Shown here piece by piece: positions 7,289 to 28,026 of a stretch of 64,000 bases of DNA. The stretch covers positions 1-64,000 of the forward strand of contig JAJFGG010000103.1 of NCBI GenBank assembly GCA_021776235.1, read 5' to 3'. Within the stretch, counting starts at the first letter, position 1, and each line of letters opens with the position of its first letter. The notes below the pieces were generated by a model. That model saw nothing but the letters and a program-made list of their open reading frames with translations, had not been told where the DNA came from and did no database searches. Origin of the DNA: Alphaproteobacteria bacterium (GTDB lineage Bacteria > Pseudomonadota > Alphaproteobacteria > GCA-2731375). The position numbers and the translations under genes are program-made.

Positions 7289-8590
7289 TCAGGCAGGGTT
7301 GGAACGGCCGCTTTCGACCAGTTCAGCATCACTCAAAATCCTGTATTCATCAATAATGACGTCAAGCGGCCGGTCAGTAATTTCCGATATTTCAAAAATG
7401 GACGTCGCTCCGTCGGCATAGGAGAGAAAATCCATTCTTGCCTCGACACTGGCTGTAGAACCCCTTCTAGAGACTGTCGGATAGAGGCCGCGTTTGCCCA
7501 ATTGTGGCTCACACAATACGCGGACTTTGGGATATTCACCCATTTCAAAGGCGTCGATGATGTTTTTCATGACCTCGAAAGATCCCGCCAGTCCTTTTGC
7601 CGTTACCACGTCAAAATTGTCTGCGTCAGTGTGATATTCCGGATATTCTCCGAATTTCGAGCGGCTAAATGTACAAACGGGCAAATCAATTCCGGGCGCG
7701 CAATATCGAGTTTCATCGGAGCCGCGACCCAAAAAAGTATAGGTTTTGACATTTTCCCGGCCCCGCAATGCGGCCTGAAGCGCCTTGTCTACGAGGCTGT
7801 TGCCAAACCGGGATTGCACTTGACTATAAGCCCGTTCGTCGCCGACGCAACTTAGATTGAAGCCGCAATAAACTTTGCTCTTCAGGATCTGATGGTATCG
7901 CGACAAATAGGCAATCGATCCAATCGTTTCAGGTAGTAGGACAAACCTGTAGCTGAAATTCGGTTCAGGATATTGCTGTTTTACATACCGCATCAAGGCC
8001 GACAGCAGCACCGGGCCCGAGAGTTCATTATTGGCCATCGAAGGATGGCAGACATTCGAGGAGAAAAAAATCTCCTGTGACGAGGCGCCCTTTAGCACGG
8101 CGTGGGTGAGGTTAAGTGTTCCATCTGCGAGGGTGGAGTCAATGAATGCGCGATAATTACCCTCCGGTAGATTGCATTTTTCTTCGTGGGACATGCAAAA
8201 TCCCCAACGCTCGCTATAATAACTTGTGACATATGGAACTACGCCTGGCTGTTCCGGAATTGTATATATATTGTCGCTAAGATCTTCCAATTTGAAAACT
8301 TGATCGATCGGTGATGCATAATTTAGAACATGTAGATTGTTTTTTCCAAATTCCGCAAATCTTTTTCCCGATTCGTGCTCTAAATAGGCATCGTTTATAT
8401 TCCATTCTTTCGGAATATCCCAGTCGAAGACTGTCTCCCCCGTCTTAAAGGTGATAAATTCGAATTCAGGATTGATATTTTGAAAATATTCTAATGTTCT
8501 GCGCGTCCCGCCGCCAGTTATTGATCGGCAATATGGGAACAATTCTTTCGCCCATTGCAGCATTTCCTCACCAAGTTCAGCATTATCCAT
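7289..8590 (-). CDS. DUF4910 aminopeptidase-fold protein
   Basis: A 433-residue protein of the DUF4910 family (M28-like zinc peptidase fold with an inserted DUF2172 region). Zinc-site segments are visible: SNVCHPSMANNELSGPVLL, the acidic LLPETIGSIAYL, and EYPEYHTDADNFDVV near the C-terminus. Members are repeatedly found in surface-polysaccharide clusters, where they may act on an amide bond of a modified sugar rather than on peptides; this is unproven. It is the last gene of a four-gene minus-strand block, 14 bp after the O-methyltransferase, which suggests a shared transcript. There is no signal peptide, so it is cytoplasmic. Confidence 0.88.
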   Translation of the reverse strand: MDNAELGEEMLQWAKELFPYCRSITGGGTRRTLEYFQNINPEFEFITFKTGETVFDWDIPKEWNINDAYLEHESGKRFAEFGKNNLHVLNYASPIDQVFKLEDLSDNIYTIPEQPGVVPYVTSYYSERWGFCMSHEEKCNLPEGNYRAFIDSTLADGTLNLTHAVLKGASSQEIFFSSNVCHPSMANNELSGPVLLSALMRYVKQQYPEPNFSYRFVLLPETIGSIAYLSRYHQILKSKVYCGFNLSCVGDERAYSQVQSRFGNSLVDKALQAALRGRENVKTYTFLGRGSDETRYCAPGIDLPVCTFSRSKFGEYPEYHTDADNFDVVTAKGLAGSFEVMKNIIDAFEMGEYPKVRVLCEPQLGKRGLYPTVSRRGSTASVEARMDFLSYADGATSIFEISEITDRPLDVIIDEYRILSDAELVESGRSNPA

Positions 8591-8604: not shown

Positions 8605-9321
8605 CTAGTATTTTATTTTTTGAATGTACATTGTCGGTTGTCGGGCACCCAAAACGTGATGAACTTCATAGTTTTTGCCATACTGACCCAGGAATTCATT
8701 GACGGCAAGGCCTTCGCCGGGATACCCGGCGTCATTCCATTCATCGAATACAAACAGCCCGCCTTTACTTAATCTTGGGTGCAATTGCTCAAGTATCAGG
8801 CGCGTGGATTCGTACAAATCCGTATCGCAATAAACGAATGAAAAGCTCAAGGCCGCCTGCTGCTCCATTAGTTCGGGGAGGGTATCCTCGATAAGGCCTA
8901 CATGGAACTCAACATCATCGCCAATTTCATACAATTCAAGCATTTTTTGCAGCTCTTCATAGGATCCCCGGTAGCGGCCCATATTTTCTTTAGCGACGTC
9001 GTCTTGCGCGACAAAAGCTCCCAATCCCTCGAAACTATCGAAGCCATGAATGACCTTGCTGCCATGTGGATCGAATATTCGAAGCGTTTTCGCCATTAAG
9101 GATGTTGTCGCGCCCCGCCATAGGCCAAATTCGGCAACATGCCCGGGAACGTCCAGGGTTGAGCGAAGCAAATCGGTAATGGCGAAGACGCGTCCCAGGT
9201 TGCCCATGCCGCAGTAAAGCGGCCAATGATCCATGACGGACCATAATTCGCGAGGGCCTGTTTCGTCGGAAAACGCCTGGCGCTGTTCTTTGTAACGTTC
9301 ATCTAAGTTCTTGAATTTCAT
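8605..9321 (-). CDS. TylF/MycF-type O-methyltransferase
   Basis: A 238-residue SAM-dependent methyltransferase. The glycine-poor SAM motif VAEFGLWRGATTSLMA lies around residue 62, and the metal-dependent TylF/MycF features follow: FVYCDTDLYESTR and GGLFVFDEWNDAGYPGE, whose Asp residues bind Mg2+. TylF and MycF methylate hydroxyls of deoxysugars in macrolides. Relatives in glycan loci methylate sugar hydroxyls or acyl substituents such as glyceryl groups. The position directly downstream of the FkbH and ACP fusion genes fits methylation of the acyl group they make, but the target is inferred. Confidence 0.88.
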   Translation of the reverse strand: MKFKNLDERYKEQRQAFSDETGPRELWSVMDHWPLYCGMGNLGRVFAITDLLRSTLDVPGHVAEFGLWRGATTSLMAKTLRIFDPHGSKVIHGFDSFEGLGAFVAQDDVAKENMGRYRGSYEELQKMLELYEIGDDVEFHVGLIEDTLPELMEQQAALSFSFVYCDTDLYESTRLILEQLHPRLSKGGLFVFDEWNDAGYPGEGLAVNEFLGQYGKNYEVHHVLGARQPTMYIQKIKY

Positions 9322-9355: not shown

Positions 9356-10843
9356 TCATTGTTTCTTCTGCAGCCACAAACTTCTTAGGCCAGCATAGCT
9401 GTAGGTGACGGAAATCTCTTCCGACGTAAAGGAAATGCCCAAGGTACGCTCTATTTCCAGCATCAGTGCGATATGGCTGAGGGAATCCCAGGTGCTGACC
9501 CGGCCCAACTCGGCAGTGCCCAAACCTTCCCCTACCGGAATTCTCAGAACCCGTCTAACGACTTCATCCAGTTCGGTGGTGGCGTTTTCGCCAGACGCAC
9601 CGCCGGAACCGTCCGCCACCGCGGCGGGCGCCAAACCCTCCGGATTTGCCGATGTTTCGAATGATTTGCGATCATCTCTGGCTGTCATCGGATGAAAGCC
9701 ATAGACTCCTTCGATTTTTCGCCCGACCTCAAGGATCAAATAGGGGGATGCCGTCGAAGGGCTCATTGACTGTTCGATGATGGCGTTGGCGACTTCCTCC
9801 GGCGCGAGGGCCACGATGTCTGGATCTCGATAGGGCTTGGAGAATCCGCCCTGGACGAACCCAGGCGAAACCGTCATACCCCGCACCCCGAACCTGGCAT
9901 ATGACCGCTCCAGCGTCGAAACAGCGTTCTGCCCCATTGCCTTGGCGGCGGCGTACTGCTCCCAGCCCGGAAGGCTCCGGTCCATTGCGGTTGAACCAAC
10001 GAACACAGCGGCGCCGGACTGTCGGCGCAACATTCCCGGCAATCCCGCCTTGATGACCGCCTCGAACGCAACGAAATTTACCGCGGCCAGGGCCGCCAAT
10101 TTTGCCGAAACCGGTGGGCAGGCGGTATGAACAATCGCTGCCAGATCCGCGATTTTTTTTGTCGCCGACGCTAGGCTTTCCACATCGGCTGCTTTCTCGA
10201 GGTCCGCCTTGAAGATCTTCGCCGCGACACCTTTCGCATTGCATTCCGACGCCAGTTTTCTGGCGGCATTTTCATCTCGGCGGTATTGCAGTAAAAGCTG
10301 CCAGCCCTCGGCGGCGAATTTTCGTGCCACTGAGGCGCCGATTGCGCCCGTTGCCCCGGTTACCAAGGCGGTCCTGTTTCGACCCGCGTTGCGACGCGTG
10401 GCGGTCCCATTGCTTTGCCACTCGGCCACGCGGGCCATAACAGTCATTTCGGCCTCCAGAACGACCCCTGTCTCCGTGAAGGCGATAACCGATAATGTCA
10501 ACGCTCTCTGCGCCAGCGCGATGGCGGCAATGCGCGCGGAATAGGTGACCTTTTGTCCATAAAAGACCGGCCTTAGTGCCCGCAGGCTGTGTTCGGCATA
10601 CAGCGAAGGATCGCCGGGCAGCATCATGCCGGCAATGGCGGACAATGGCGATGCGTATAGATGCAAGGGAACAATGGGCGCACCGAACTCGGTATTGCGG
10701 CTATACGACTTGTCGTGATGCAGCGGGTTTTCGTCGCCGCTCAATTTCGAAAATGCCGCGAAATCCCTAGCGTTGAAACGGCGGTCGAAATAAACATAGT
10801 CGCCGACACTAAAATTATCGAACGCCATCGTGAGATTTTTCAT
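9356..10843 (-). CDS. MaoC-like hydratase / SDR reductase / acyl carrier protein fusion
   Basis: A 495-residue three-domain protein. Residues 1-145 are a MaoC-type hot-dog fold with the catalytic Asp/His motif SGDENPLHHD. Residues about 155-370 are a short-chain dehydrogenase with the NAD(P) motif TGATGAIGAS, a catalytic Ser in VGSTAMD and Tyr-Lys in YAAAK. After a low-complexity linker, residues about 415-495 form an acyl carrier protein with the phosphopantetheine serine in TWDSLSHIAL. The domains suggest reduction and (de)hydration of an acyl group held on the protein's own ACP. It starts at ATG 10843 with a GGAGA ribosome-binding site and overlaps the upstream FkbH fusion by four bases, so the pair is tightly coupled. 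Confidence 0.9.
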   Translation of the reverse strand: MKNLTMAFDNFSVGDYVYFDRRFNARDFAAFSKLSGDENPLHHDKSYSRNTEFGAPIVPLHLYASPLSAIAGMMLPGDPSLYAEHSLRALRPVFYGQKVTYSARIAAIALAQRALTLSVIAFTETGVVLEAEMTVMARVAEWQSNGTATRRNAGRNRTALVTGATGAIGASVARKFAAEGWQLLLQYRRDENAARKLASECNAKGVAAKIFKADLEKAADVESLASATKKIADLAAIVHTACPPVSAKLAALAAVNFVAFEAVIKAGLPGMLRRQSGAAVFVGSTAMDRSLPGWEQYAAAKAMGQNAVSTLERSYARFGVRGMTVSPGFVQGGFSKPYRDPDIVALAPEEVANAIIEQSMSPSTASPYLILEVGRKIEGVYGFHPMTARDDRKSFETSANPEGLAPAAVADGSGGASGENATTELDEVVRRVLRIPVGEGLGTAELGRVSTWDSLSHIALMLEIERTLGISFTSEEISVTYSYAGLRSLWLQKKQ

Positions 10844-13338
10844 ATCTCTCCAATTTCCCCGCCATGAAAATCAATAGTCAGCCAGGATGGTATGCGTGAA
10901 CTATGTTTTGCCAGGGCGTAGCGCCATGCGCCCGGTGCTGGAGCGCGCTTGAACCCGGCGGACTCGAAGACTTCGCGGCAGGGGGTATTGCGTTCCGTTT
11001 CAATGACCTGGCCAAACAGTTCGGCAAGGCCGCGACGATATGCTTCATCAAGGGCCCAAAACAATACACCCGTCTCAATCCCCTTGCCCAGGATGCGGCA
11101 GGACAACAGATAACTGTCAACAAGCGCCTTGCCCGGCCCAGGATGATTCCAGCGGATAACTATCAATCCGATATTCTCGAAATCCGAAAACTTGTCCTCT
11201 GCGCCTATGATGAGGACATCGCCACCGGCGCGAATGATTTCATCGAGATCGGCACGTCCATAGCGCCGGGTTGTGGTGTTGAATTGATTGGTTTTCGCCA
11301 GCAGCTGAAGGCCTCGCGAGACGTTGTTCTCTGATAGTGTAGCGATGGTCAGACGGGTTCCAAGTGAGGCAAAAAAATCGTCGAGATTGGCGACCGATGA
11401 GCGTAGAGAACTGACTTTCTCCATTGCCTTGTAACTCTTGGTCCTATTCAGATCCTCATTCGTCAAGCTCAAGGCATCAATCCAGGGACTGGCGAGAAGG
11501 CTTGAAGCGTAGAGCGCCGGATCATCGGGCAGATCTAGGACCTTGACCATGGGAAGCTCGAATCGCATCTGTTCCCGCTCTATAGGATTATCATCGACAA
11601 AAAGCAGATGTTCGAGGGACAACCCAAGCGTTGCCGCGATATCCTCAACGTTCTTCCACTTTGGCGTCCAGTTGATCCGCCAGGCCGCGAAATCCTGTTG
11701 GCCGAGCGCCATTGCTCTCAGGCTCTCCATGGCCCGAAGGGCGTGCGTTTCGTCATTTTTGCTGCAAAGCGCCAGCGCGATGCCGCGTTGCGAAAGCTGT
11801 TTCAGCACGGCCTGAAAATCGGCAAAGGCATTTCCGGGATAATCGCCGCCCACAGCAATACCTTCGACGCCGACCTCACCCAAAACGCCGCCCCACAGGG
11901 TGTTGTCCAAGTCCATAACGATCAGGCGGACAGACCGGCCCGTCGCGGCCAGCGCATGGGCCGAGAAACGATGGGCCAGCTCTGTCGTGAATGCGTCTGA
12001 GAACGGAAAGCGGCCAAGGTACCAAAGTCTGGGGTCAAATATATCGCCATTGCCAAGCCGCCGCCCGACCTTATCAATGTCGAATAAAACCGTGTCGGAT
12101 AAATCTTTCAATGCGTCCCCAAGTTCGTTGTTGAATTTGGCAACAAGCTTGTCCGGGGAAGTCGAGATGGATAGTCCGGCACTGCCGAGTGCCGTATCGG
12201 CGGGCAGTGCAAATCGATTTACAATAATCCAGCCACGATGGCATAGACGGTAGTTTTTTATGAGCGATATGTACTGCTGAACGATGTCTTCAAGTGTCTC
12301 CTCCAAAACACCATCAAGGCTGGAAACGCCCAGCAAATCTTCTAAGCGGTCGACAAAAAAGACCAGATCAGGTTCGAAGGCATGGAGGGGCGACTTGCGG
12401 TTGATGATGGTCTGCGGAAACTGGCCAAACGGCGGCGTATATATCTGGTGGTTCTGATCGGTGATTTGTTCGGAAAGAGCCGAAGCCAAGGCGTCTTTCA
12501 TAAATTCCAGGTTGCTGCTGCCCAGCAGCGCAATTTTCAGCTTTGGTCGCGCCCGTGCTTTATTAAACTGATCCCATAGATAGCCGGCTTTTTTCCCGTT
12601 CTGTACATATGCCCATGGGTTCTCTTTCAATGCCTGCCGGCAAAGAGCCGCAATGTCCTTGCAAGAGGCCGCCTCCGCCAGACCGCCCCAAAGGGGGGAC
12701 GATATGACATAGCCTTTGTCGTGGAGGTCGTCGATCACCGTTGAAAAATCATTCTCGGCGGGCGTGTCCATGGTCCGCACCAACATGGTCGCGCTGGTCT
12801 CTCGCGGGCCGCGGCCATAATCGGCCGATCCCTTGAAATCCTTGAAGTACCGGTAGGGGACTTTGGCTTCTTCTTCGTAGCGGTGAAATTGGGTGCAAAA
12901 GCTCCAATCGCACCCAAGCATGATTAAGCGGGCATTCAGTTTCTCGAACAGAGCCAAGGCTGAATCGGGGCCAAATGTTGTGGTGTTTTCGCACCTGGCG
13001 ATTTCTTCAGCCAGAGGTCCGGTCACAGCGTATGAATATATCGGATGTGACGTGCGGATCGCCTCGGGCAGATCGCGGATCCAGTCCCCGAAAAGCCCCG
13101 TTTCCGATGCTGTACGCGCCGCGTCATAGGGCGCCCCACCGCAAAAACTAAACGTAAATGTCGGAAATGCCAACGTCATGCCGTCGGCGACCAGTTCCCG
13201 AACCCCATAAATGAAATCCCACCTATCGAACCCACAGGGTGGCTTCAGATGCGGCAATGACGAATGGATCACGGCCAACCTGTCTTTGGCCGAAATGCAG
13301 ATCCGCAATGATTTCAGGAGGGTTGCTCTAGTCGACAT
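10840..13338 (-). CDS. AAC(3)-like N-acyltransferase fused to FkbH-like acyl-loading enzyme
   Basis: An 832-residue fusion. Residues 1 to about 255 belong to the aminoglycoside 3-N-acetyltransferase family (SETGLFGDWIRDLPEA, RTSHPIYSYAVTGP, LGCDWSFCTQFHRYEE). Residues 270-460 resemble the SGNH-like N-terminal region of FkbH proteins (IALLGSSNLEFMKDAL). A HAD phosphatase domain follows with the nucleophile motif MDLDNTLWGG near residue 478 and FVDDNPIER, then a GNAT-like C-terminal domain. FkbH enzymes dephosphorylate 1,3-bisphosphoglycerate and load the glyceryl group on an ACP; AAC(3) enzymes acylate amines. The fusion therefore suggests loading of glyceryl or a related acyl on the ACP encoded next door, and transfer to an amino sugar. 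I use ATG 13338; GTG 13341 is the alternative. Confidence 0.9.
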   Translation of the reverse strand: MSTRATLLKSLRICISAKDRLAVIHSSLPHLKPPCGFDRWDFIYGVRELVADGMTLAFPTFTFSFCGGAPYDAARTASETGLFGDWIRDLPEAIRTSHPIYSYAVTGPLAEEIARCENTTTFGPDSALALFEKLNARLIMLGCDWSFCTQFHRYEEEAKVPYRYFKDFKGSADYGRGPRETSATMLVRTMDTPAENDFSTVIDDLHDKGYVISSPLWGGLAEAASCKDIAALCRQALKENPWAYVQNGKKAGYLWDQFNKARARPKLKIALLGSSNLEFMKDALASALSEQITDQNHQIYTPPFGQFPQTIINRKSPLHAFEPDLVFFVDRLEDLLGVSSLDGVLEETLEDIVQQYISLIKNYRLCHRGWIIVNRFALPADTALGSAGLSISTSPDKLVAKFNNELGDALKDLSDTVLFDIDKVGRRLGNGDIFDPRLWYLGRFPFSDAFTTELAHRFSAHALAATGRSVRLIVMDLDNTLWGGVLGEVGVEGIAVGGDYPGNAFADFQAVLKQLSQRGIALALCSKNDETHALRAMESLRAMALGQQDFAAWRINWTPKWKNVEDIAATLGLSLEHLLFVDDNPIEREQMRFELPMVKVLDLPDDPALYASSLLASPWIDALSLTNEDLNRTKSYKAMEKVSSLRSSVANLDDFFASLGTRLTIATLSENNVSRGLQLLAKTNQFNTTTRRYGRADLDEIIRAGGDVLIIGAEDKFSDFENIGLIVIRWNHPGPGKALVDSYLLSCRILGKGIETGVLFWALDEAYRRGLAELFGQVIETERNTPCREVFESAGFKRAPAPGAWRYALAKHSSRIPSWLTIDFHGGEIGEI

Positions 13339-14023
13339 CACATTGAAAAGTCATTAAGTCGATGTTTCCCAGATAACTGGCATATTCATGACCATGCTAC
13401 CCAATTTGCGCCGCCGAAGGAACGGATTTCCTCCGCAGGCTGATGGATAGCCCGATTTTTACTGGCTGTCGATGTTCAAAAATCCCTTTGTTCATATTTC
13501 TGACCATCCAAACGCACCCCTCCCATCGCTATACTTGGCTGCGAATTTCCGCGGCCTTCGCCGGGGCGGGTCTTCGTTGGCGATCATCAATCCAGCTCAG
13601 AATTTTCTCGAACAAGGTCCCCGGCATCAATGAAAAACTCGATTCCCGATAAGCAGATAGTCCTCGGCCAATATCGCCATGCCGTTTCCGGTGCCGTTAC
13701 TGTCGTCTATCGAGTTTACTAATCTCTTGACGGCTATTGCCTTTTACAGGATGATCAATTTAGTTTGTTGTCTGATGAAAAATGGCCAGGGTGGCGAAAA
13801 TGCCATCACCCTGATGGCGGAGCTTGGGCACATTTGCCGACAAGCACTTCCGCAAATTCCTAACCTAATCGCGACCCGAAAATTCTCGTCCCAAGCCTTT
13901 GGCCCTCGACCGTCACCCTATGACGCGGAATGCAGGCTATAGGAATGACCCGCCAATCAGGTGCCGGCATCTAGGGCATTTCCGGGCTATTCTTGGCGCT
14001 CAACAAGAGTTTCTACAAATAAG
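13339..14023. other. 685-bp divergent intergenic region
   Basis: This gap separates the minus-strand acyl cassette from the plus-strand asparagine-synthetase operon. Short open frames occur (for example 13679-13942) but show no family resemblance, no good ribosome-binding site and no coupling to a neighbour, so I do not call them. Promoters for both operons should lie here; none can be assigned with confidence. Confidence 0.55.
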
Positions 14024-15895
14024 ATGTGTGGCATAGCAGGATCCTTTGGGCCCATTGAGCCTGACCGCGAATCTATTGCGCGGACACTTAAGCTCATGAG
14101 CAACCGAGGACCGGATGCGCATGGCTGCCGCAAATTAACCGTGCGTGGACAACCCTTGGCGCTATTGCATTCACGGCTCTCGATTATCGATCTTGACGAG
14201 CGCGCCAATCAGCCATTTGCGGCGGATGGATGTGTCCTTTCATTCAACGGCGAAATATTTAACTTCGTGGAATTACGGCGCGAGCTCGAAGCGCTCGGCC
14301 ATAAATTTGCCACACAATCGGACACCGAGGTCATCATCAAGGCCTATCGGCACTTTGGCGACGGCTTTGTTGACCGCATGGAGGGCATGTGGGCCTTTGC
14401 GCTAGTCGATGAGCGCAAGCAAGTCCTTATTCTCAGCAGAGACAGGTTTGGCGAAAAGCCGTTGTATTACGCGGAATGGGGCGGCGTACTTTATTTCGCG
14501 TCCGAGGCCAAGGCGCTTGCAGCCCTGGCAAACCGGATACCAAGCCCTGACCACGAACAGGTTCGGCGATACCTGGTGAACGGTTACAAGGCGCTATACA
14601 AAAGCCCACGTACCTATTTTACCGATATTCATGAATTTCCCGCAGCTTCTTATGCCATTATCAGTACGCCACAGATGGCAACGCCCATACGTTATTGGCG
14701 GCTTGAGTATGCCCCCCAAGCCATATCACGCAGCGATGCGCTGGCGGAAGTGCGTGAACGGCTTATGCGCGCAGTTGAAATACGCATGCGGGCCGATGTG
14801 CCAATCGCATTTTGTTTGTCAGGAGGCGTCGATTCCACCGCGCTTGCCTTGATCGCCAACAAGCAATTCGGTCGCGACATAAGCACGTTTTCGATCATCG
14901 ATCAGGACCAACGCTACGACGAATCGGAAAACCTCGAAGTCACGGTTTCCGAGCTCGGCTGTTCCCATGAGTTTATTGAAACCAGCACAGACCATTTCCT
15001 TGACGGCATGCGCGATCTGGTCGCCTATCATGACGCGCCGGTTGCAACAATTTCATACTATGTTCATGCGTTTCTCTCGGAGGCGATAAGCAAGGCTGGC
15101 TTCAAGGTGGCGATATCAGGGACCGGCGCTGACGAGCTCTTCACCGGCTACTACGATCACTACGGTTATTGGCTGGCAAGCCAGAGTGCGCGGCCCGATT
15201 TTGATGACTTGATTATGGATTGGCGGGAGAGCCTGGGCGCCTTCGTGCAGAACCCGTTGTTACAGGATCCCCGCGCCTTCGCCAAGAACCCAGGGCAACG
15301 CGGCCATATTTATCTGAATAGCGAGCATTTTAGCGCGTTGTTGCGCGATCCGTTCGAAGAGGTCTTTGCGGAAACGCGTTATTCGGGTGATTTGCTGCGC
15401 AATCGTATGTTGAACGAAATTCATCACGAAGCGATCCCGGTATTGTTGCGTGAGGATGATTTGAACTCCATGAGATGGTCAGTGGAAAACCGCTCTCCAT
15501 TTCTCGACAGGTCACTTTCGGAGTTCTTATTCACGGTTCCGAACGAGCATCTAATCGATCGCGGTTACACAAAGTCATTGCTGCGCGACGCTGTTGCGGA
15601 TCTGACGCAGACCGATGTCATTTGGGACAAACGCAAACGTGGCTTTAATGCTTCCATCGATTCAGTCCTTGATCGCAACGATCCCGATACAATTGAATGT
15701 TTGCTGGCGCCGGGCCCCATATTCGATATTGTCGATCGAAATGCCATGGAAGGCCTTCTAACCAAGGATATGACGGACAATAGCTACTCGAAATTTCTTT
15801 TCAGCTTCGTCTCGTCGAAAATGTTCTTGGAAAGCGACCTGTTCAAATTCAGCCAACCCCATGGCGACCTGGCACCAGAGGCCCAGACGTCATGA
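14024..15895 (+). CDS. asnB: Asparagine synthetase-type glutamine amidotransferase (copy 1)
   Basis: A 623-residue class II glutamine amidotransferase plus asparagine-synthase domain. The start is fixed at 14024 because the catalytic cysteine must be residue 2 (MCGIAGSFG) after removal of Met1; an upstream in-frame start would bury it. The glutaminase region has RGPDAHG, SFNGEIFNF and the DTEVI motif. The synthetase PP-loop is CLSGGVDST, followed by SGTGADELFTGY. Such enzymes in glycan loci amidate carboxyl groups of uronic or nonulosonic acids or of peptide-like substituents, rather than making free asparagine. It overlaps hisH by four bases, so it leads the first amidination operon. Confidence 0.9.
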   Translation: MCGIAGSFGPIEPDRESIARTLKLMSNRGPDAHGCRKLTVRGQPLALLHSRLSIIDLDERANQPFAADGCVLSFNGEIFNFVELRRELEALGHKFATQSDTEVIIKAYRHFGDGFVDRMEGMWAFALVDERKQVLILSRDRFGEKPLYYAEWGGVLYFASEAKALAALANRIPSPDHEQVRRYLVNGYKALYKSPRTYFTDIHEFPAASYAIISTPQMATPIRYWRLEYAPQAISRSDALAEVRERLMRAVEIRMRADVPIAFCLSGGVDSTALALIANKQFGRDISTFSIIDQDQRYDESENLEVTVSELGCSHEFIETSTDHFLDGMRDLVAYHDAPVATISYYVHAFLSEAISKAGFKVAISGTGADELFTGYYDHYGYWLASQSARPDFDDLIMDWRESLGAFVQNPLLQDPRAFAKNPGQRGHIYLNSEHFSALLRDPFEEVFAETRYSGDLLRNRMLNEIHHEAIPVLLREDDLNSMRWSVENRSPFLDRSLSEFLFTVPNEHLIDRGYTKSLLRDAVADLTQTDVIWDKRKRGFNASIDSVLDRNDPDTIECLLAPGPIFDIVDRNAMEGLLTKDMTDNSYSKFLFSFVSSKMFLESDLFKFSQPHGDLAPEAQTS

Positions 15896-16506
15896 TCGGT
15901 ATAATCGATTACGGACTGGGCAATATAAAGTCCGTTGCCGGCGCCGTGACACGATTGGGCGAAAAATGCGAGATAACGAGCGATCCTGTAAAGCTTGAAG
16001 CAACAGACAAGATTATTCTCCCCGGGGTTGGCGCATTTGGCGACGGCATGCAGAAGCTCCATCAACGGAAGTTGATCGCCCCCCTTTCGCGCATGGTCAT
16101 GGAGCAGGCGAAGCCGATTTTAGGAATCTGTCTTGGTTTTCAATTGATTGCCGACGGCGGAGAGGAGTTTGGCGAGCATACGGGACTGGGCTGGATCCGG
16201 GGTCAGGTACGCAAGCTTTCGCCGAATGACCCTGAACTGCGGCTGCCGCATGTTGGTTGGAACGGCCTGTTTCAAAAGCGCACCAGTCCGATCCTTCAAG
16301 ATGTGCCGGAAGACGCACTTTTTTACTATGTGCATAACTATTACTTGGATACCACTGACGATGAAATCATCGTCGGCGAATGCGAGTACGGCGGCCGTTT
16401 TACCGCAGCGATACAGTGGCGCAATATCTGGGCAACTCAATTCCACCCGGAGAAGAGTCAGCGGCACGGGCTTACGGTACTCAAGAATTTTATTACGCAT
16501 GCCTAG
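15892..16506 (+). CDS. hisH: HisH-like glutamine amidotransferase subunit (copy 1)
   Basis: A 204-residue class I glutaminase with the nucleophile cysteine in GICLGFQ (about residue 82) and the His/Glu pair in QFHPEKS. The oxyanion and interface segments are LPGVGAFGDGM and LPHVGWNGL. In histidine synthesis HisH feeds ammonia through HisF. Here no other his genes are present, and the neighbours are a NeuB synthase, a HisF homologue and an N-acetyl-sugar amidotransferase. The likely role is ammonia supply for converting an acetamido to an acetamidino group, as in the WbpG/HisH2/HisF2 system of Pseudomonas O-antigen. Confidence 0.92.
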   Translation: MIGIIDYGLGNIKSVAGAVTRLGEKCEITSDPVKLEATDKIILPGVGAFGDGMQKLHQRKLIAPLSRMVMEQAKPILGICLGFQLIADGGEEFGEHTGLGWIRGQVRKLSPNDPELRLPHVGWNGLFQKRTSPILQDVPEDALFYYVHNYYLDTTDDEIIVGECEYGGRFTAAIQWRNIWATQFHPEKSQRHGLTVLKNFITHA

Positions 16507-16636
16507 CACTCCCTTTGCTGCGCTGCGCAGTTTCTAATCACCTACGGAGAGCCTCCAGGCGATTAACAGTACGGCGCCCTTCCGGTTTCGGAAATGATCA
16601 TCCGATGGATACCATCCTAACTTTCTGCAGGACTGA

Positions 16637-17650
16637 ATGATGAAATTATTTGGAAAAGACTTGGACACGGATGTCGCGGTGGTGGCCGAGATTGGCGTCA
16701 ATCATGAAGGTGACCCTGAAAAAGCATCGGAGTTGTTGCGGCTGGCCGCAGGGGCCGGGGCTGATGCTGTCAAATTCCAAAGCTATACGCCGTCCCGCTT
16801 CGCATCCGCCAATGATCTGGAAAGATTGGAGCGCGTTACCCGTTTCGGTTTAAGCGAGGCCGACCATCGACGATTGGCGGCGGAAGCCAAAACTCTAGGC
16901 GTTGTCTTCTTCTCCACGGCGGTGACGGAAGACTGGGTGCCGCTCATTGCCGAACTATCGCCGACCATCAAAATTGCCAGCGGGGATCTGACATTTGAGC
17001 CGGTGATCCGCGCTGCCGCGCGCACTGGCAAGTCGGTCATTATGTCCACAGGCACAGGCACCATTGAAGAAGTGGACCGTGCCGTTGACTGGTTTAAGGA
17101 GGAAGTCGGCGCGGCGAACCTGGCGGACCGATTGCTCCTGATGCACTGCGTTTCCGCCTACCCAGTGCCAATTGAGGATGCCAATGTACGAACCGTTCCT
17201 TTTTTCGTTGAGCGTTATGGTATACCAATCGGCTATTCAAATCATGTCCTGGGGCAAGAAGCCGTACTGGCGGCAGTTGCCCTCGGCGCCTGCGCCATTG
17301 AGGTCCATTTTACAGACTGCAAAACTGGCCGCACATTTAGAGATCACGAGTTGTCGTTTGAGCCCGATGAACTGAAGGCATTAATCAAATCAATTGGCCA
17401 TGTGCGCTCGAGTTTGGGCGCCTATGACAAGCAACGCCAAGCCAGCGAGGAGCCATTGGTTGCCATCACCCGTAAAGGACTTGTCGCCGCCCATGATCTT
17501 GAAGCCGGTGTCGTGCTTGGCCGGGACGATATCATGTTCGCAAGGCCGGCGACGGAGTTTACCTCTAATGAACTGGACCTTGCCGTCGGTCGCCGCCTGG
17601 CACAGGCGCTGAAAAAGGGTCAACTGATTCCTCGGACAGGCGTGGAGTGA
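16637..17650 (+). CDS. neuB: NeuB-family nonulosonic acid synthase (copy 1)
   Basis: A 337-residue protein with a NeuB TIM barrel (EIGVNHEGDPEKA, GADAVKFQSYTPSRF, KIASGDL, MSTGTGTIEEVD, HCVSAYPVP) and a C-terminal SAF antifreeze-like domain (about residues 275-337). The family condenses phosphoenolpyruvate with a six-carbon amino sugar to form sialic, legionaminic or pseudaminic-type acids. The motif that usually reads EKHFT with a following GPDH is altered here to EVHFTDCKTGRTFRDHE, so its substrate may differ from that of the second copy at 30884. An AGGA ribosome-binding site precedes the double ATG. Which acid is made cannot be decided from the sequence. Confidence 0.9.
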   Translation: MMKLFGKDLDTDVAVVAEIGVNHEGDPEKASELLRLAAGAGADAVKFQSYTPSRFASANDLERLERVTRFGLSEADHRRLAAEAKTLGVVFFSTAVTEDWVPLIAELSPTIKIASGDLTFEPVIRAAARTGKSVIMSTGTGTIEEVDRAVDWFKEEVGAANLADRLLLMHCVSAYPVPIEDANVRTVPFFVERYGIPIGYSNHVLGQEAVLAAVALGACAIEVHFTDCKTGRTFRDHELSFEPDELKALIKSIGHVRSSLGAYDKQRQASEEPLVAITRKGLVAAHDLEAGVVLGRDDIMFARPATEFTSNELDLAVGRRLAQALKKGQLIPRTGVE

Positions 17651-17689
17651 ATGCAATTTTGACTTTAATCAAAAAGCTCAGATAAGCGA

Positions 17690-18436
17690 ATGCTGCGAAA
17701 ACGCGTCATAACTGTTCTGACCTTCTGCGACGGAGTCCTATTCCGCACAAAGAAGTTCACGCCGGATTACCGATACACACTCAATTTCGTTGATGCCTGG
17801 TCAATAGATGAAATTGTGGTGTTGGATGTCACCCGGCCCGGACAGGGACAACGGTCAAATTTCTACGACGTCATAGAGGGATTGGCGAGCCGCTGTTTCG
17901 TTCCTCTGGCTGCCGGTGGAGGCATACGAACATTTGAAGATGTCCAGAAATTTATGGGTCTTGGTGCCGACAAAGTAATTATCAATTCGCAGGCCATTGC
18001 CCGGCCGGATTTCATCACGGAAATCGCCAAACAATATGGCTCGCAATGTGTAGTGGTTTCAATGGATGCAAAAAAGACAGACGACGGAAAATATGAGATT
18101 TATTCCGATTTCGCGACTAAATCGGCTGGTTATAATCCTGCTGAGTGGGCCCAAAAATGCGAGGCGCTGGGTGCCGGTGAAATCTTAATCACATCGGTGG
18201 AGAAAGACGGTTCGGTCGAAGGATATGATCTGGAGCTTTGTCGGATGGTCGCCGACAGTGTGCGCATTCCCGTCCTAGTTTGCGGCGGTGCCGGAAACTG
18301 GAGCCACTTCGAGGAAGCCTTTATCGAGGCGAACGCATCCGCGGTGTGCACCGCAAGTATTTATCACTTCACAGAAACCAGCATCAAAAGCGCCAAGGCG
18401 TATCTCAATAAGGCGGGTATCAATGTCCGAACTTGA
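17690..18436 (+). CDS. hisF: HisF-like ammonia-channel subunit (copy 1)
   Basis: A 248-residue (beta-alpha)8 barrel of the HisF family (PLAAGGGIRTFEDVQ, GADKVIINSQA, GAGEILITSVEKDGS, VLVCGGAGNWSHFEE). Residue 11, the catalytic Asp of true imidazole-glycerol-phosphate synthase, is Thr here (VLTFCDG), while the second Asp region (VVSMDAK) is retained. Loss of the cyclase residue fits a role as conduit that passes ammonia from HisH to the sugar amidotransferase, whose gene starts 14 bp before this one ends. This is the accessory HisF2 type, not histidine biosynthesis. Confidence 0.9.
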   Translation: MLRKRVITVLTFCDGVLFRTKKFTPDYRYTLNFVDAWSIDEIVVLDVTRPGQGQRSNFYDVIEGLASRCFVPLAAGGGIRTFEDVQKFMGLGADKVIINSQAIARPDFITEIAKQYGSQCVVVSMDAKKTDDGKYEIYSDFATKSAGYNPAEWAQKCEALGAGEILITSVEKDGSVEGYDLELCRMVADSVRIPVLVCGGAGNWSHFEEAFIEANASAVCTASIYHFTETSIKSAKAYLNKAGINVRT

Positions 18437-19586
18437 AAACACCGAATTCGGGACAGCTGGCATGGGCGAAGCCGCAGGTATCCGCTATTGCAAACGCTGC
18501 CTCATGCCGAATTCACGCCCACGGATCCAGTTCGACGAAAATGACATTTGCAATGCCTGCCATACCGCGAAACGCAAAAACGACATCGACTGGGAAGCGC
18601 GCCGGGCCGAATTCCTGGATTATGTCGAACGATACCGCCCCAAGAGCGGACCCTATGATTGCATTGTCCCTTGGTCTGGCGGCAAGGATTCCAGTTCCAT
18701 CGCCCATCGCCTCAAGTTTGAATTTGGCCTAAATCCTTTATTGGTCACTTTTTCACCACTGCTGCCCACGGAAATTGGCGAGCATAATTGTGTTGAAATG
18801 TTGAAAGTGGGCTTTGACCAGATTTTGGTGCGCCCCAATCAGGCGGTCTCCCGTCACCTTGCACGGCGCTTCTTCGTCGAGCGCGGCAACCCGAAGGTCC
18901 ACTGGGACGCCGGCGTCGCAGCCGCTCCTATGCAGATCGCCGTAAAATTTGGCATCCCGTTGGTCTTTTATGCTGAGCATGGCCCTAGCGAATATGGCGG
19001 ATATGTTCTCAGCGAAGAGAACATGAAGGTTCAGGACTATACTGAAGTTCTGGAAAATCAAATTGGCGACCACCCGCAAAACTGGCTCGACGAGTATATC
19101 CAGGAAAAGGATCTGGCGCCTTATGTATTGCCAAGCTTTGAGGATATTCAGAAGGCTGAAGTGACGGCCCTTTACTTCGGCTATTTCTTTCGCTGGAGCA
19201 TGTATGAAAACTACGACTACATAAAGGATAAATTCGACTTTCGGACAGATCCAAGAGGGCGTACCGACGGTACATTCACCAATTTTGATAGCCTCGACGA
19301 CAAGATTGACAATCTGTACTACCACATGCAGTTCGTGAAATTCGGCTTCGGAAGAACCGTGCGGGATGCCTGCCGCATGATCCAGAACGACCAGATGACA
19401 AGAACGGAAGCGTTGGCATTGGCCGAGAAGTACGATGATGAGTTTCCACAACAGTACTTATCTGAAAACCTTGAATTCCTCGGCATGACTGAGCCCGAAT
19501 GCATGGAAACCATTGATCTTCACCGCAATTCCGAAATTTGGAATTTCGATGGCAATCATTGGAAACTTCGCAACCCACCAAAATGA
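18423..19586 (+). CDS. N-acetyl sugar amidotransferase, PseA/WbpG type (copy 1)
   Basis: A 387-residue PP-loop enzyme. A putative zinc site is formed by YCKRCLMP and CNAC near the N-terminus, and the ATP-pyrophosphatase motif is VPWSGGKDSSS (about residue 80). The family adenylates an N-acetyl group and replaces oxygen with HisF-delivered ammonia, giving an acetamidino sugar (known in pseudaminic and legionaminic acid derivatives and in Pseudomonas WbpG). The start at ATG 18423 lies inside the end of hisF and gives the normal family N-terminus. HisH, HisF and this enzyme together form a complete amidination unit. The second copy (26739) shares the layout but is clearly divergent. Confidence 0.92.
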   Translation: MSELENTEFGTAGMGEAAGIRYCKRCLMPNSRPRIQFDENDICNACHTAKRKNDIDWEARRAEFLDYVERYRPKSGPYDCIVPWSGGKDSSSIAHRLKFEFGLNPLLVTFSPLLPTEIGEHNCVEMLKVGFDQILVRPNQAVSRHLARRFFVERGNPKVHWDAGVAAAPMQIAVKFGIPLVFYAEHGPSEYGGYVLSEENMKVQDYTEVLENQIGDHPQNWLDEYIQEKDLAPYVLPSFEDIQKAEVTALYFGYFFRWSMYENYDYIKDKFDFRTDPRGRTDGTFTNFDSLDDKIDNLYYHMQFVKFGFGRTVRDACRMIQNDQMTRTEALALAEKYDDEFPQQYLSENLEFLGMTEPECMETIDLHRNSEIWNFDGNHWKLRNPPK

Positions 19587-19642
19587 TGCACCTGTTCAGT
19601 CTGCAATAGTGCAACTGTTTGCCAAATTGAGAAAGCCCAGCG

Positions 19643-20389
19643 GTGGTGGCGATTTCTGATCATTCCTATCAGCAGCTCCTTTTCGAGACGGAGGCTCTGG
19701 GACAACCGGTTGCCAGACTGAAATTGGGCCGGGGCGCGTCAGCGTCTACTCATGGCGCAATTATCGGTGATCTCGTACAGGATTGGCGGTCGCAACATCT
19801 GTGGCTGGTTTCCTGCCGGGTTGACGATCACGACGCCGCCGCCAAAGCGGCGCTTAGCGCCAATGATTTTCGTTGTATCGAAACCCTCGTGACGTTGGAG
19901 CGAACCATCGACGGCAATCAAGCTATGCCGGACGGTATCTCGCAGGCAACAGATGATGATTGTGATGCCTGCATCCAGATTGGGCGTCGGGCATTCGGGC
20001 ACGACCGCTTTCACATGGACGATAGAATAGATAATGATCTGGCGGACCGGGTGAAGGCAAACTGGGTGCGTAATTCACTGCAAGGGCGGGCAGATGCCGC
20101 GTTGGTATCTCATGAGGCGGGGCAGACACGTGGTTTCGTGTTGTGTTTGCACAACGGCGACAACGCGATTATCGACCTGATTGCTGTTGCAAATGATGGC
20201 CAAGGTCGAGGCATTGGCGGCAAGCTGGTCGCCGGGGCGCTATCACATTATCGAGGACGCGCCAAACGCATGCTGGTCGGCACCCAGCACGACAACTTAG
20301 CATCTCGCGCCCTTTACGAACGCATGGGCTTTGTCAGAGTAAAGACCGAGGTGACCTATCATTGGGTCAACCCAGAGATATTGTCATGA
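19643..20389 (+). CDS. GNAT N-acetyltransferase, WecD/RffC-like
   Basis: A 248-residue protein with a C-terminal GNAT domain: the acetyl-CoA motif is NDGQGRGIGGKLV and the late motif is NLASRALYERMGF. The segment FGHDRFHMDDRI resembles the substrate region of WecD, which acetylates the 4-amino group of dTDP-4-amino-4,6-dideoxygalactose. A likely role is acylation of the amino group placed by the DegT aminotransferase two genes downstream, the step PseH or LegH performs in nonulosonic-acid synthesis. Translation probably starts at a GTG (19643 or 19646). It overlaps the next gene by four bases. Confidence 0.82.
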   Translation: MVAISDHSYQQLLFETEALGQPVARLKLGRGASASTHGAIIGDLVQDWRSQHLWLVSCRVDDHDAAAKAALSANDFRCIETLVTLERTIDGNQAMPDGISQATDDDCDACIQIGRRAFGHDRFHMDDRIDNDLADRVKANWVRNSLQGRADAALVSHEAGQTRGFVLCLHNGDNAIIDLIAVANDGQGRGIGGKLVAGALSHYRGRAKRMLVGTQHDNLASRALYERMGFVRVKTEVTYHWVNPEILS

Positions 20390-21387
20390 ACACCTTGCGC
20401 GTTGGCATCATCGGACTTGGGGTCGGGGAACAACATCTCAAAACCTACCAAGGCCTGCCAGATGTGGAGGTGACCGCGATCTGCGACATTGATAGCGAGA
20501 AACTGGAGACGGTTGCGCAGCGATATGGCGTGCCGGGGCGCCACGCGGATTTTCGCAAAATCACGGAAAATGCCGAGATCGATATTGTCTCCATTTGCTC
20601 ATATGACGATAGCCATGCTGAACAAGCCGTTTCCGCCTTTGACAATGGCAAACACGTCATGGTCGAGAAGCCGGTTGCACTCTATCGCTCTGACGCCGAA
20701 GCGGTGTTGCGTGCGCAGCAGGATTCAGGTTGCCGCATATCATCGAATTTGATTCTACGGGAGAGCCCTCGCTTCATCGAACTTAAGCAGCAGATAGAGT
20801 CCGGCGATTTTGGCGAGATCTTTTGTATCGAAGGTGACTATTTGCACGAAATTCTGTGGAAAATCACTGAGGGTTGGCGCGGTGCCATGGATTTCTACTG
20901 TACCGTCTATGGTGGCGGCATCCATTTGATCGACCTTATGCGCTGGCTGATTGGCCAGGAAGTTACGGAGGTCAGTGGCATGGGAAACAAAATTCTGACC
21001 CGCGATAGCAGCTACCGCTTTGATGACACCTTCATAAACCTATTGCGCTTTGATAATGGTACGATCGGTAAATGTTTGACGACGCTGGGCCCGCAACGCA
21101 CCAAGTTTCACTCTTTGAACGTCTATGGCACGCGCAAGACCTTCGTCAATGACGTGCCCAACGCCAAACTGTTCGACGGTGACGGCCCGGAGAATGAAAG
21201 CGTCATCGAAACCCCTTACCCCGGCATGAAGAAAGGCGATCTGATTCCGGAGTTTGTCCAAGCTATTCGGGACGACATTGAACCGAATGTCGGCGTGCGG
21301 GACGTCTTCCGCGTCATGGATATTTGTTTCGCCGCCTGGGAATCGATTCAGTCCGGGCGAACACAGAAAGTTTCTTACCAAATATGA
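20386..21387 (+). CDS. Gfo/Idh/MocA-family oxidoreductase (first)
   Basis: A 333-residue NAD(P)-dependent oxidoreductase. The Rossmann motif GIIGLGVGEQH is at the N-terminus, EKPVALYRSDAEAVL carries the catalytic Lys-Pro, and GGGIHLIDLMRWL is the conserved His/Asp helix of the C-terminal domain. Members oxidise or reduce sugar hydroxyls. ATG 20386 is chosen because it gives the family N-terminus and an ATGA overlap with the GNAT gene. It in turn overlaps the DegT aminotransferase by four bases. Oxidoreductase plus aminotransferase plus GNAT is the usual set for keto formation, amination and acylation of a nucleotide sugar, probably in that order. Confidence 0.88.
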   Translation: MNTLRVGIIGLGVGEQHLKTYQGLPDVEVTAICDIDSEKLETVAQRYGVPGRHADFRKITENAEIDIVSICSYDDSHAEQAVSAFDNGKHVMVEKPVALYRSDAEAVLRAQQDSGCRISSNLILRESPRFIELKQQIESGDFGEIFCIEGDYLHEILWKITEGWRGAMDFYCTVYGGGIHLIDLMRWLIGQEVTEVSGMGNKILTRDSSYRFDDTFINLLRFDNGTIGKCLTTLGPQRTKFHSLNVYGTRKTFVNDVPNAKLFDGDGPENESVIETPYPGMKKGDLIPEFVQAIRDDIEPNVGVRDVFRVMDICFAAWESIQSGRTQKVSYQI

Positions 21388-22535
21388 ACATACGAAATAT
21401 TCCGTTCGGCCGGCCAATGGTCGATGAGGCCGAACGCGATGCCGTGATGGCCGTGCTATCGGGCACGCAATTTGTCCACGGCCCTGTCAGCAAGGAATTC
21501 GAGGCCCAATTCGCGGCCCGCGCCGGGACGGCATACGCAGTTTCGGTTTCATCATGCACCGCAGGCCTGCACCTCTCCCTTCTCGTCAACGGCATCGGCA
21601 AAGGTGATAGTGTGATCGTGCCCGCGATGACCCATGTCGCGACCGCGCACGCAGTGGGATTTTGCGGCGCCCGCCCGATCTTTGCCGACGTCGATCCGGT
21701 GTCAGGTAACATGGACCCCACTGCCCTGGCGGACGCCATCGATGGCGACACCCGCGCCATCATGGTCGTACATTATTTGGGGCTTCCCTGTGACATGGAT
21801 CGTATCGACCCCATAGCGGCAAGCGCAAAAGCCTTTGTCGTCGAAGACTGCGCGCTGGCTGTCGATGCCTATTATGGCGACCGCAAAGCCGGGACGCTTG
21901 GCCTGACTGGTTGCTATTCATTTTATCCGGTCAAGCATTTGACAAGCGTTGAAGGCGGAATGGTAACGACAAATGACGAGGCCGTAGCGCAGGCAATAGC
22001 CAAACACAAAGCCTTTGGCTACGACCAGATGCTGGGTCAGCGAGCCAAGCCGGGTATCTATGACGTCGATGCGTTGGGCTACAATTATCGCATGTCAGAA
22101 GTACATGCGGCTGTCGGGCTGGCGCAGCTTGACAAGCTGGACGCCTTTCAAGCGGCCCGCAAAGAAAACTTCAAGCGCCTGAAACTGGCGCTTTCAGAGA
22201 TTGCGGAAGTTACGGTTTTCGAACCTGTCATTGGCAAGGCACGATCCAGCCACTACTGCCTGAATGCTGTTTTACCGCGCGACGGCTCAATTTCGCGAGA
22301 CTTGGTTGTCAGTCACCTGAAGGAAGCTGGCATCGGAACGTCGGTACACTATCCGCGCGCTGTTCCCCTGATGGCCTACTATCGGGAGAAGTTCGGCTGT
22401 CAGATCGGACAATTTCCGATTGCTGAATGGCTGGCCGAACAAACCATTTCACTTCCCGTTGGTCCACACCTCGTGGATGACGACCCGGAGTACATTGGCG
22501 CCACAGTGAAAGAGGCAATCGCCCGTGCAAAATAG
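21384..22535 (+). CDS. DegT/DnrJ/EryC1/StrS PLP aminotransferase (first)
   Basis: A 383-residue sugar aminotransferase. Features include FVHGPVSKEFEAQFA, the PLP-ring-stacking region VVEDCALAVDAYY and the Schiff-base lysine in SFYPVKHLTSVEGG, then YNYRMSEVHAAVGLAQL. The family transfers an amino group from glutamate to a keto-sugar nucleotide (PseC, LegC, WbpE and others). Start ATG 21384 overlaps the preceding stop. Placed after a Gfo/Idh oxidoreductase, it probably aminates the ketone made by that enzyme. The precise carbon and sugar are not determinable. Confidence 0.9.
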   Translation: MNIRNIPFGRPMVDEAERDAVMAVLSGTQFVHGPVSKEFEAQFAARAGTAYAVSVSSCTAGLHLSLLVNGIGKGDSVIVPAMTHVATAHAVGFCGARPIFADVDPVSGNMDPTALADAIDGDTRAIMVVHYLGLPCDMDRIDPIAASAKAFVVEDCALAVDAYYGDRKAGTLGLTGCYSFYPVKHLTSVEGGMVTTNDEAVAQAIAKHKAFGYDQMLGQRAKPGIYDVDALGYNYRMSEVHAAVGLAQLDKLDAFQAARKENFKRLKLALSEIAEVTVFEPVIGKARSSHYCLNAVLPRDGSISRDLVVSHLKEAGIGTSVHYPRAVPLMAYYREKFGCQIGQFPIAEWLAEQTISLPVGPHLVDDDPEYIGATVKEAIARAK

Positions 22536-22562
22536 ACCTGTAGATAATTCGAAGGATGCTGC

Positions 22563-23639
22563 GTGATGACCCACATCCCCTATGAAGATGTGATAGCGAA
22601 GCTTGCTGGCGAAAGGGTAATGTTGGTTGGCGGCGCCGGTTTCATCGGCCACAATCTGGCCCTCGAACTGGCGCGAAACGACATCACCACGACCGTCGTC
22701 GATAACTTGATGGTTAACAGTGTCATCGACAATGTATTCGTATCAGGGAAAGACCCGGTTCAGCGCCAGATGTATCTCAATTTCCTGTTGTCGCGGTTTC
22801 AGCTTATGCGTGAGAACGGCATTGAACTTCGAAATTTGGACGCCCGAAGTTACATGGACCTTTCCCATGCCTTCGGTGATTTCAAACCAACCAAAGTGAT
22901 CCATCTCTCGGCCATTGCCTCTGCCGTGGATGCCCGAAATGATCCCGGACTGTGTTTCGACCTGCAGCTCATCACCCTGCGAAATGTGCTTGAGCTTTGC
23001 CGCCAGGCGCATAGCGATGTCAATCAGGTTATGTTCATGAGCTCCAGCACGGTATATGGCGACTTTGAAGGCGATGAGGTGGACGAAAGCACCCGTCCGC
23101 GGCCCCGTGGAATCTATGCCAACACCAAATTCATGGCGGAACGCCTGCTGCGCACCTATTGCCATCAACATGGCCTGGGTGTGACCGTAATTCGGCCAAG
23201 TGCGCTATATGGGGTACGATGCATCAGCCGCCGGGTCAGCCAGGTATTTATCGAGAACGCCTTAACCGGCAAGCCTCTTATGTTGGAAGGTGGCGGCGAT
23301 GGCCGTCTTGACTTCACGTCTATCGAGGATCTCGTCGACGGCCAGGTTCGCGCACTTGCACTGCATGAAGGCCGAGGAACCTCGAATACCTTCAACCTTA
23401 CTTTCGGCAATGCACGCACCATTGCCGAACTGGCAGACGTCGTTAAATCGGTGATCCCGAATGTCATATTGGAAGACCGGCCGCGGGCAGAGGACAAGCC
23501 TGTGCGTGGCACTCTGTCTACCGAACGGGCGGAGCGCATTCTGGGTTTCAAGGCCAGCCGGCCGCTTGAGGATGGCTATAAGCGCTATTGCGAATGGTAC
23601 GTCGAACAATGGGAACGGGCTGCTTCTCAAAACGTTTGA
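22563..23639 (+). CDS. NAD-dependent sugar epimerase/dehydratase
   Basis: A 358-residue extended short-chain dehydrogenase with an N-terminal GGAGFIGHNLALELA cofactor motif (about residue 23), the catalytic Ser/Thr region FMSSSTVYGD and the YANTK Tyr-Lys pair. DFTSIEDLVDGQVRAL is the usual substrate-domain signature. It could be a 4-epimerase, a 4,6-dehydratase or a decarboxylase; the triad does not decide. GTG 22563 or ATG 22566 may be used, with AGGA about 10 bases upstream. It follows the aminotransferase by 27 bp and precedes an SpsF-like cytidylyltransferase, so it is part of the first nonulosonic-acid block. Confidence 0.87.
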   Translation: MMTHIPYEDVIAKLAGERVMLVGGAGFIGHNLALELARNDITTTVVDNLMVNSVIDNVFVSGKDPVQRQMYLNFLLSRFQLMRENGIELRNLDARSYMDLSHAFGDFKPTKVIHLSAIASAVDARNDPGLCFDLQLITLRNVLELCRQAHSDVNQVMFMSSSTVYGDFEGDEVDESTRPRPRGIYANTKFMAERLLRTYCHQHGLGVTVIRPSALYGVRCISRRVSQVFIENALTGKPLMLEGGGDGRLDFTSIEDLVDGQVRALALHEGRGTSNTFNLTFGNARTIAELADVVKSVIPNVILEDRPRAEDKPVRGTLSTERAERILGFKASRPLEDGYKRYCEWYVEQWERAASQNV

Positions 23640-23664
23640 GCCCGCGGTGCCTTCTGGTTAAGCG

Positions 23665-24384: not shown

Positions 24385-24386
24385 CG

Positions 24387-25175: not shown

Positions 25176-25315
25176 GGTGTCTTCCTCCAATCCTTGAGCC
25201 GACAGCATCAGCCCGATTTGAGAGTGAGACCGCAATTGCCAGCTGACAGGTACCGCAGCCTTCCCGATTTCGTCAAGGGCGCAAGGGTTTTCACCGCCCA
25301 CCATCGAGGGCCGGC

Positions 25316-25933: not shown

Positions 25934-25945
25934 CGCGGCACGATC

Positions 25946-26734: not shown

Positions 26735-26738
26735 CGCC

Positions 26739-27893: not shown

Positions 27894-28026
27894 CCCCCGC
27901 CATTCAGGCCCGCGCCTCGAAATACCGGCCGAACCGTGAAATTTGATACAAACCGATAGGTCGACCGGGACCAATTGAGCAGACGCAAACTACCACCGGT
28001 TAGAAAAATGTATTGCTAGCGAGACT

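Follow-up and report, generated by a model that had tools for sequence, protein, structure and literature searches.

A fused AAC(3)-FkbH and MaoC-SDR-ACP cassette predicted to acylate a nonulosonic-acid type amino sugar

What do two multi-domain proteins, encoded back to back beside a sugar cluster, make, and to what do they attach it? The window analysed here (64,000 nt of contig JAJFGG010000103.1, to whose proteins all residue and coordinate numbers refer) encodes a protein that joins an AAC(3)-type N-acyltransferase to an FkbH-type acyl-loading enzyme, and a second that joins a MaoC hydratase, a short-chain dehydrogenase/reductase (SDR) and an acyl carrier protein (ACP). The cassette is real, conserved and mobile; its parts and their linkage are established, while its product is predicted. 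We give a probability of roughly 55% to the reading that four genes (7289-13341) are an operon for N-acyl exchange on a nonulosonic-acid type amino sugar, following an FkbH, MaoC, SDR, AAC(3) and TylF route. The features concerned are:

10840..13341, minus strand: protein 1, AAC(3)-FkbH fusion, 833 aa, a single open reading frame (ORF) with a GTG start
Protein 1, residues 1-262: AAC(3)-type N-acyltransferase domain (Antibiotic_NAT PF02522 at 25-236, 3e-24)
Protein 1, residues 269-452: SGNH-like N-domain of FkbH (FkbH_N match, sub-threshold)
Protein 1, residues 471-605: HAD-IIIC part of FkbH
Protein 1, residues 615-800: GNAT-like part of FkbH
10840..10843, minus strand: ATGA, 4-base overlap of the protein 1 stop and protein 2 start
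9356..10843, minus strand: protein 2, MaoC-SDR-ACP fusion, 495 aa
Protein 2, residues 6-135: MaoC (R)-hydratase domain (family match 25-103)
Protein 2, residues 155-345: SDR ketoreductase domain (family match 158-338)
Protein 2, residues 425-490: C-terminal ACP (W-D-S-L motif, phosphopantetheine Ser454)
8605..9321, minus strand: TylF-family O-methyltransferase (PF05711, 5e-20), candidate methylator of the acyl hydroxyl
7289..8590, minus strand: DUF4910-DUF2172-HTH_47 protein, 433 aa, of the family of Campylobacter jejuni Cj1295 and PDB 3k9t

Both fusions and the four-base overlap had been read by the first-pass annotation of this DNA, and domain matches, AlphaFold models and relatives agree with it; an in-frame ATG at 13338 accounts for the end that it gave for the first gene. 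Its additional GNAT enzyme in protein 1 is to be dropped, this segment being the normal C-terminal part of FkbH. Residues 471-798 match TIGR01686 (FkbH) with 265 bits, above the curated cut-off of 146.65, and the earlier proposal that an FkbH-type enzyme loads the ACP encoded in the cassette is supported. The PF02522 match, the fold and the catalytic His likewise point to an AAC(3)-type amine acyltransferase, as had been suggested. An aminoglycoside-resistance identity was rejected, with 44 bits against NF033082 at a curated cut-off of 270, and scores below the cut-offs of the other resistance models. Also rejected were a phage-defence role (PADLOC gave no match) and a phage-borne origin (no phage record matches protein 2). 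Matches of the AAC(3) domain on viral contigs include L104, where it is identical to that of a Spartobacteria contig.

The AlphaFold models, built from alignments made in this analysis, are confident (mean pLDDT 84.9 for protein 1 and 86.2 for protein 2) and were compared by Foldseek. Protein 1 matches the FkbH-like phosphatase 3slr and AAC(3)/FrbF structures; the AAC(3) fold reaches a TMt of 0.71-0.80 among the matches listed, at only 14-23% identity to the AAC(3)/FrbF structures. The middle part of protein 2 matches FabG and polyketide (actKR-type) ketoreductases, and the MaoC domain has its best PDB sequence match in 1iq6, an (R)-specific enoyl-CoA hydratase (1.4e-18), with the D-x-N-P-L-H motif aligned. 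The Asp-x4-His catalytic pair is present in the SGDxNPLH motif, and His153 of the AAC(3) domain aligns with the catalytic His154 of AAC(3)-IVa. Conservation was counted over 18 genome loci (the window and 17 others), or over 16 for the residues of MaoC-SDR-ACP. His153 and Glu156 of AAC(3) are kept in 18/18, as are the FkbH motifs DLDxT and LLSC; the conserved Cys of the latter, in the GNAT-like part, we take to be the glyceryl carrier. In protein 2, Asp37 of MaoC is kept in 16/16 and His42 in 15/16, and both Tyr297/Lys301 of the SDR and Ser454 of the ACP in 16/16.

Whole-genome searches first yielded four further full-length fusions (later recovered as L045, L051, L055 and L057). When named genomes were scanned with the AAC(3) part, 61 loci came back, and 17 further distinct loci (L042-L058) have the AAC(3)-FkbH fusion, in Alpha-, Gamma- and Deltaproteobacteria, Magnetococcales, two Bradyrhizobium, Planctomycetes, Riflebacteria and Prochlorococcus. 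L059 was set aside as an apparent second copy of L045; its contig is binned as Nitrosopumilus, apparently has the same sequence as the Rhodospirillaceae locus L045, and is likely mis-binned. Four plasmids, complete ones included, also carry the fusion (Maritalea, Sinorhizobium sp. RAC02, Erwinia rhapontici and Rahnella sikkimica), giving 22 loci with the window, the Erwinia and Rahnella ones being nearly identical. The phyla represented are Pseudomonadota, Planctomycetota, Riflebacteria and Cyanobacteriota. A search for genomes with both fusions adjacent, as had been advised, finds MaoC-SDR-ACP beside AAC(3)-FkbH in 20 of the 22 loci, often with DUF4910 or NeuB as neighbours; in the Rahnella copy the MaoC-SDR-ACP gene is broken inside the SDR. 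The feared outcome, separate domains in all relatives, did not appear, and an assembly or annotation artefact or chance is rejected by the 22 fused loci, since the same fusions recur in 17 further genome loci and four plasmids. All 18 fused AAC(3) domains fall in a single clade (support 100/100), separate from all unfused ones, by which repeated independent fusions are rejected. One fused clade over four phyla indicates transfer between distant bacteria.

Erwinia and Rahnella make up a distant branch. Their cluster contains an NTP-transferase/aminotransferase fusion, a CDP-alcohol transferase, a HAD protein, an ATP-grasp protein and an MFS exporter, with no DUF4910, and looks like a natural-product cluster employing the fusion pair. 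The pair can thus serve outside a sugar context. These plasmid clusters of about 11 kb are nearly identical in two enterobacterial families (L136:5489-16481 and L138:4489-15396).

Is every part of the cassette needed? MaoC-SDR is found in 16 of the 18 genome loci and is absent from L048 (Riflebacteria) and L053 (Prochlorococcus), where the ACP is joined straight to AAC(3)-FkbH. The sister of L053, L056, carries MaoC-SDR-ACP (support 100/100), so MaoC and SDR were most simply lost together in L053 and the ACP retained; a constraint grouping L048 and L053 as one clade is rejected (p-AU 1.6e-5). Elsewhere in the L048 and L053 genomes, which may be incomplete, only generic SDRs were found as possible equivalents. 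As the module is missing in two unrelated lineages, the core that stays constant is ACP, FkbH and AAC(3), with MaoC-SDR optional, and the presence or absence of MaoC-SDR suggests a lactyl or a glyceryl product, respectively. The first-pass annotation had proposed a short acyl group, which stands, and had named no product.

Gaps of 34 and 14 bases follow the protein 2 gene (from coordinates) and, with the ATGA overlap, make 7289-13341 read as a four-gene operon in the order AAC(3)-FkbH, MaoC-SDR-ACP, TylF-type methyltransferase, DUF4910 protein. The TylF-like neighbour had been recognised earlier, and its PF05711 match agrees with this; the fourth gene, for DUF4910, had been overlooked. Close TylF homologues adjoin the cassette in L044, L046 and L047, one lies a few genes off in L045, and a weaker one adjoins it in L048. 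The DUF4910 protein matches 3k9t at 5.9e-84. A DUF4910 gene adjoins the fusion or sits within a few genes of it in 17 of the 18 genome loci, and in the last genome it lies elsewhere, a few kb from NeuB, so that DUF4910 is present in 18/18 genomes. The description of the pair as self-contained therefore fits loading and transfer, and fails in that DUF4910 normally accompanies it. DUF4910, AAC(3), ACP and FkbH stand at one locus in the window, in 16 of 17 relatives and in Campylobacter. In C. jejuni, pseudaminic acid does not receive its 2,3-di-O-methylglyceroyl amide without Cj1295, which the authors proposed to strip the acetyl group beforehand (PMC3068675). Most other AAC(3) loci of the scan, whose retrieved stretches hold no FkbH, likewise adjoin DUF4910, with NeuB near in 13 of these loci. 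The AAC(3)-DUF4910 pair is a widespread two-gene unit: stand-alone AAC(3) genes have DUF4910 as partner in many phyla, often with no adjoining sugar cluster (L060-L104, e.g. L066, L068, L078, L079 and L101).

The likely supplier of the acceptor sugar lies on the other side of the cassette, among these features of the window:

13961..34414, plus strand: divergent nonulosonic-acid type cluster
16637-17650 and 30884-31954: two NeuB
23665-24384 and 33500-34414: two cytidylyltransferases
18288-19586 and 26739-27893: two WbuX amidotransferases, with two HisH/HisF pairs
21324-22535: PseC/LegC-like aminotransferase
19643-20389: WecD-like acetyltransferase
36331-37839: AMP-binding enzyme

Given these divergent neighbours (the NeuB, cytidylyltransferase and WbuX genes and the HisH/HisF pairs), a nonulosonic acid, or a precursor of one, is the most likely acceptor, and the first-pass suggestion of a short acyl going to an amino sugar is supported. 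NeuB or CMP-sugar genes are also close to the cassette in L042, L044, L045, L049, Maritalea and Sinorhizobium RAC02. NeuB matches occur in 17 of 18 genomes, and PF03102 also matches 9 of 14 control genomes. Antisense inside the cluster is a CDP-alcohol phosphatidyltransferase gene (24387-25322, minus strand, 3e-14), of the same Pfam family as that of the Erwinia cluster. Further out, an ATP-sulfurylase, a pyruvate-kinase family protein and an APS kinase lie in a polysaccharide region (41894-45200), a trio that hints at sulfation and includes an unusual pyruvate-kinase paralogue, and a CotH kinase-like protein with a beta-helix, a VTC domain protein and a DUF4956 protein are consecutive at 2929-7192.

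What, then, would the cassette make? The loading module of bryostatin comprises FkbH, a ketoreductase, a dehydratase and an ACP. FkbH, ketoreductase, dehydratase-type and ACP domains are all found within the two adjacent window proteins. A pathway-reconstruction table has an FkbH loading module leading from 1,3-bisphosphoglycerate to D-lactate-ACP (PMC7901079), and the claim of D-lactate loading rests on this table and the bryostatin module; a literature search on bryostatin with FkbH, or on N-lactyl nonulosonates, found no direct paper. The glyceryl-ACP chemistry of FkbH is published (PMC7489565). By homology, FkbH would draw glycerate from 1,3-bisphosphoglycerate and load D-glyceryl on the ACP of protein 2. 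MaoC would then eliminate the 3-hydroxyl as water (C2-C3) to give pyruvyl-ACP in its enol form, after which the SDR would reduce the 2-keto group to lactyl-ACP. The AAC(3) domain, like its homologues, would hand the acyl group to the sugar amine, which DUF4910 may free by taking off an existing N-acetyl, as hypothesised in print. Finally, the acyl hydroxyl would receive one methyl from the TylF-type enzyme, for an N-(2-methoxypropionyl) or N-lactyl sugar. Where MaoC-SDR is missing, the expected product is glyceryl, the Campylobacter outcome. Homology speaks for glyceryl loading and for N-acylation, whereas lactyl is inferred. The window ORFs scanned gave no ketosynthase Pfam match, so the chain is unlikely to be extended and probably stays at C3.

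Several observations weigh against this scheme. The action of MaoC on a 2,3-dihydroxy C3 thioester, and of the SDR on a 2-ketoacyl-ACP, is extrapolated from polyketide loading modules, and the family searches would fit 3-hydroxyacyl/3-oxoacyl substrates at least equally well. At L055 (12453-13931, = G404) the catalytic His motif of MaoC is gone (GGDGVFLF vs SGDxNPLH), with SDR and ACP intact, yet the domain is kept. TylF is near only part of the loci. As neither DUF4910 nor NeuB lies next to the Erwinia/Rahnella pair, a nonulosonic sugar is not the acceptor in every case. The usual catalytic residues are missing from the DUF4910 family according to its structure paper (PMC4000134), and without a standard metallopeptidase active site a deacylase role is doubtful.

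The acyl group could still be glyceryl or a stereoisomer, with MaoC and SDR serving to epimerise or proofread C2 and a (methylated) glyceroyl amide of the Campylobacter kind as the product. The sole characterised relative does produce di-O-methylglyceroyl and the window encodes a methyltransferase, but Campylobacter produces glyceroyl with neither MaoC nor SDR at the locus, and the MaoC catalytic residues are retained in 15/16; moreover, a hydratase with a ketoreductase is the set expected to convert glyceryl to lactyl when FkbH serves in a loading module (product in PMC7901079). We regard this alternative as unlikely. Somewhat less likely again is that the ACP takes another acyl group (acetoacetyl, crotonyl, or one activated by the AMP-binding enzyme encoded in the window), which MaoC-SDR would turn into 3-hydroxybutyryl, with FkbH as a minor route. 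The best matches of MaoC and SDR are 3-hydroxyacyl/3-oxoacyl enzymes, and 3-hydroxybutanamido sugars are known on flagella, for example in Pseudomonas syringae. Against it, FkbH is fused and intact at every locus, with invariant HAD and LSC motifs, and the annotated Maritalea cluster, like the scanned window ORFs, gave no ketosynthase match. The proposal that the product is a small secreted amide (a natural product), the position by a sugar cluster being coincidental, appears improbable: the gene content of the Erwinia and Rahnella plasmids, exporter included, and the work of FrbF, an AAC(3)-fold enzyme, in phosphonate antibiotic synthesis speak for it, but NeuB or CMP-sugar genes are near in the window and many relatives, and DUF4910 occurs in every one of the 18 genomes.

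The N-acyl-exchange operon is the preferred reading of the window. For the family at large, we see about even odds that the fusion pair is a mobile two-protein machine that turns a glycolytic intermediate into lactyl-ACP, N-lactylates nonulosonic acids or other amines with it and then O-methylates them, MaoC-SDR being an optional glyceryl-to-lactyl switch. The FkbH chemistry of polyketides would be tied to surface-sugar decoration, a predicted chemistry is offered for the poorly understood DUF4910-AAC(3) pairs of many phyla, and the gene cluster alone might forecast glyceryl versus lactyl on a surface sugar. Since every cassette brings along a loader, a carrier and a transferase, it is testable in vitro with two proteins.

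The first-pass view that no such system had been described does not hold, given a Cj1295 homologue in the operon, an unfused version of the set at the Campylobacter di-O-methylglyceroyl-pseudaminic acid locus, and a similar neighbourhood in print. With polyketide and tetronate FkbH loading (methoxymalonyl-ACP, tetronate, D-lactate) the cassette shares FkbH, a dedicated ACP and 1,3-bisphosphoglycerate as the likely source, and with the D-lactate modules also a hydratase and a ketoreductase; it differs in lacking a polyketide synthase and in passing the acyl to an AAC(3) amine acyltransferase. The AAC(3)/FrbF acyltransferases share the fold and catalytic His of its transfer domain, which is, however, fused to FkbH and probably uses acyl-ACP. 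The CA_C2195 neighbourhood of Clostridium acetobutylicum, listed in 2014 (PMC4000134), has DUF4910, an aminosugar acyltransferase, an ACP, an 'N-acetyltransferase + HAD' protein and spsE/spsF; it is unfused, MaoC-SDR is unmentioned, and no acyl chemistry was proposed. In the genus of Campylobacter aviculae, FkbH occurs in 14 of 49 genomes, and all eight loci inspected have DUF4910, AAC(3), ACP, one or two methyltransferases and FkbH in that order, downstream of pseB-/pseC-like genes, with no MaoC or SDR match. One (L121) has extra genes between AAC(3) and ACP, and another has tandem duplicate DUF4910 genes (L126:5486-8115). These loci were equated with that of C. jejuni from gene order and from publications in which Cj1295, Cj1296/7 and the FkbH gene cj1302 are named. 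The C. jejuni flagellin locus (Cj1295-Cj1302) likewise brings together DUF4910/DUF2172, AAC(3), ACP, methyltransferase and FkbH beside pseB/pseC, for an acyl amide on a nonulosonic acid such as that proposed here; it differs in that its genes are all separate, its methyltransferases are of another family, its type of AAC(3) domain belongs to a different branch, and it is without MaoC or SDR. The cassette is a fused and extended form of this known kind of pathway, and the module added to it probably makes lactyl.

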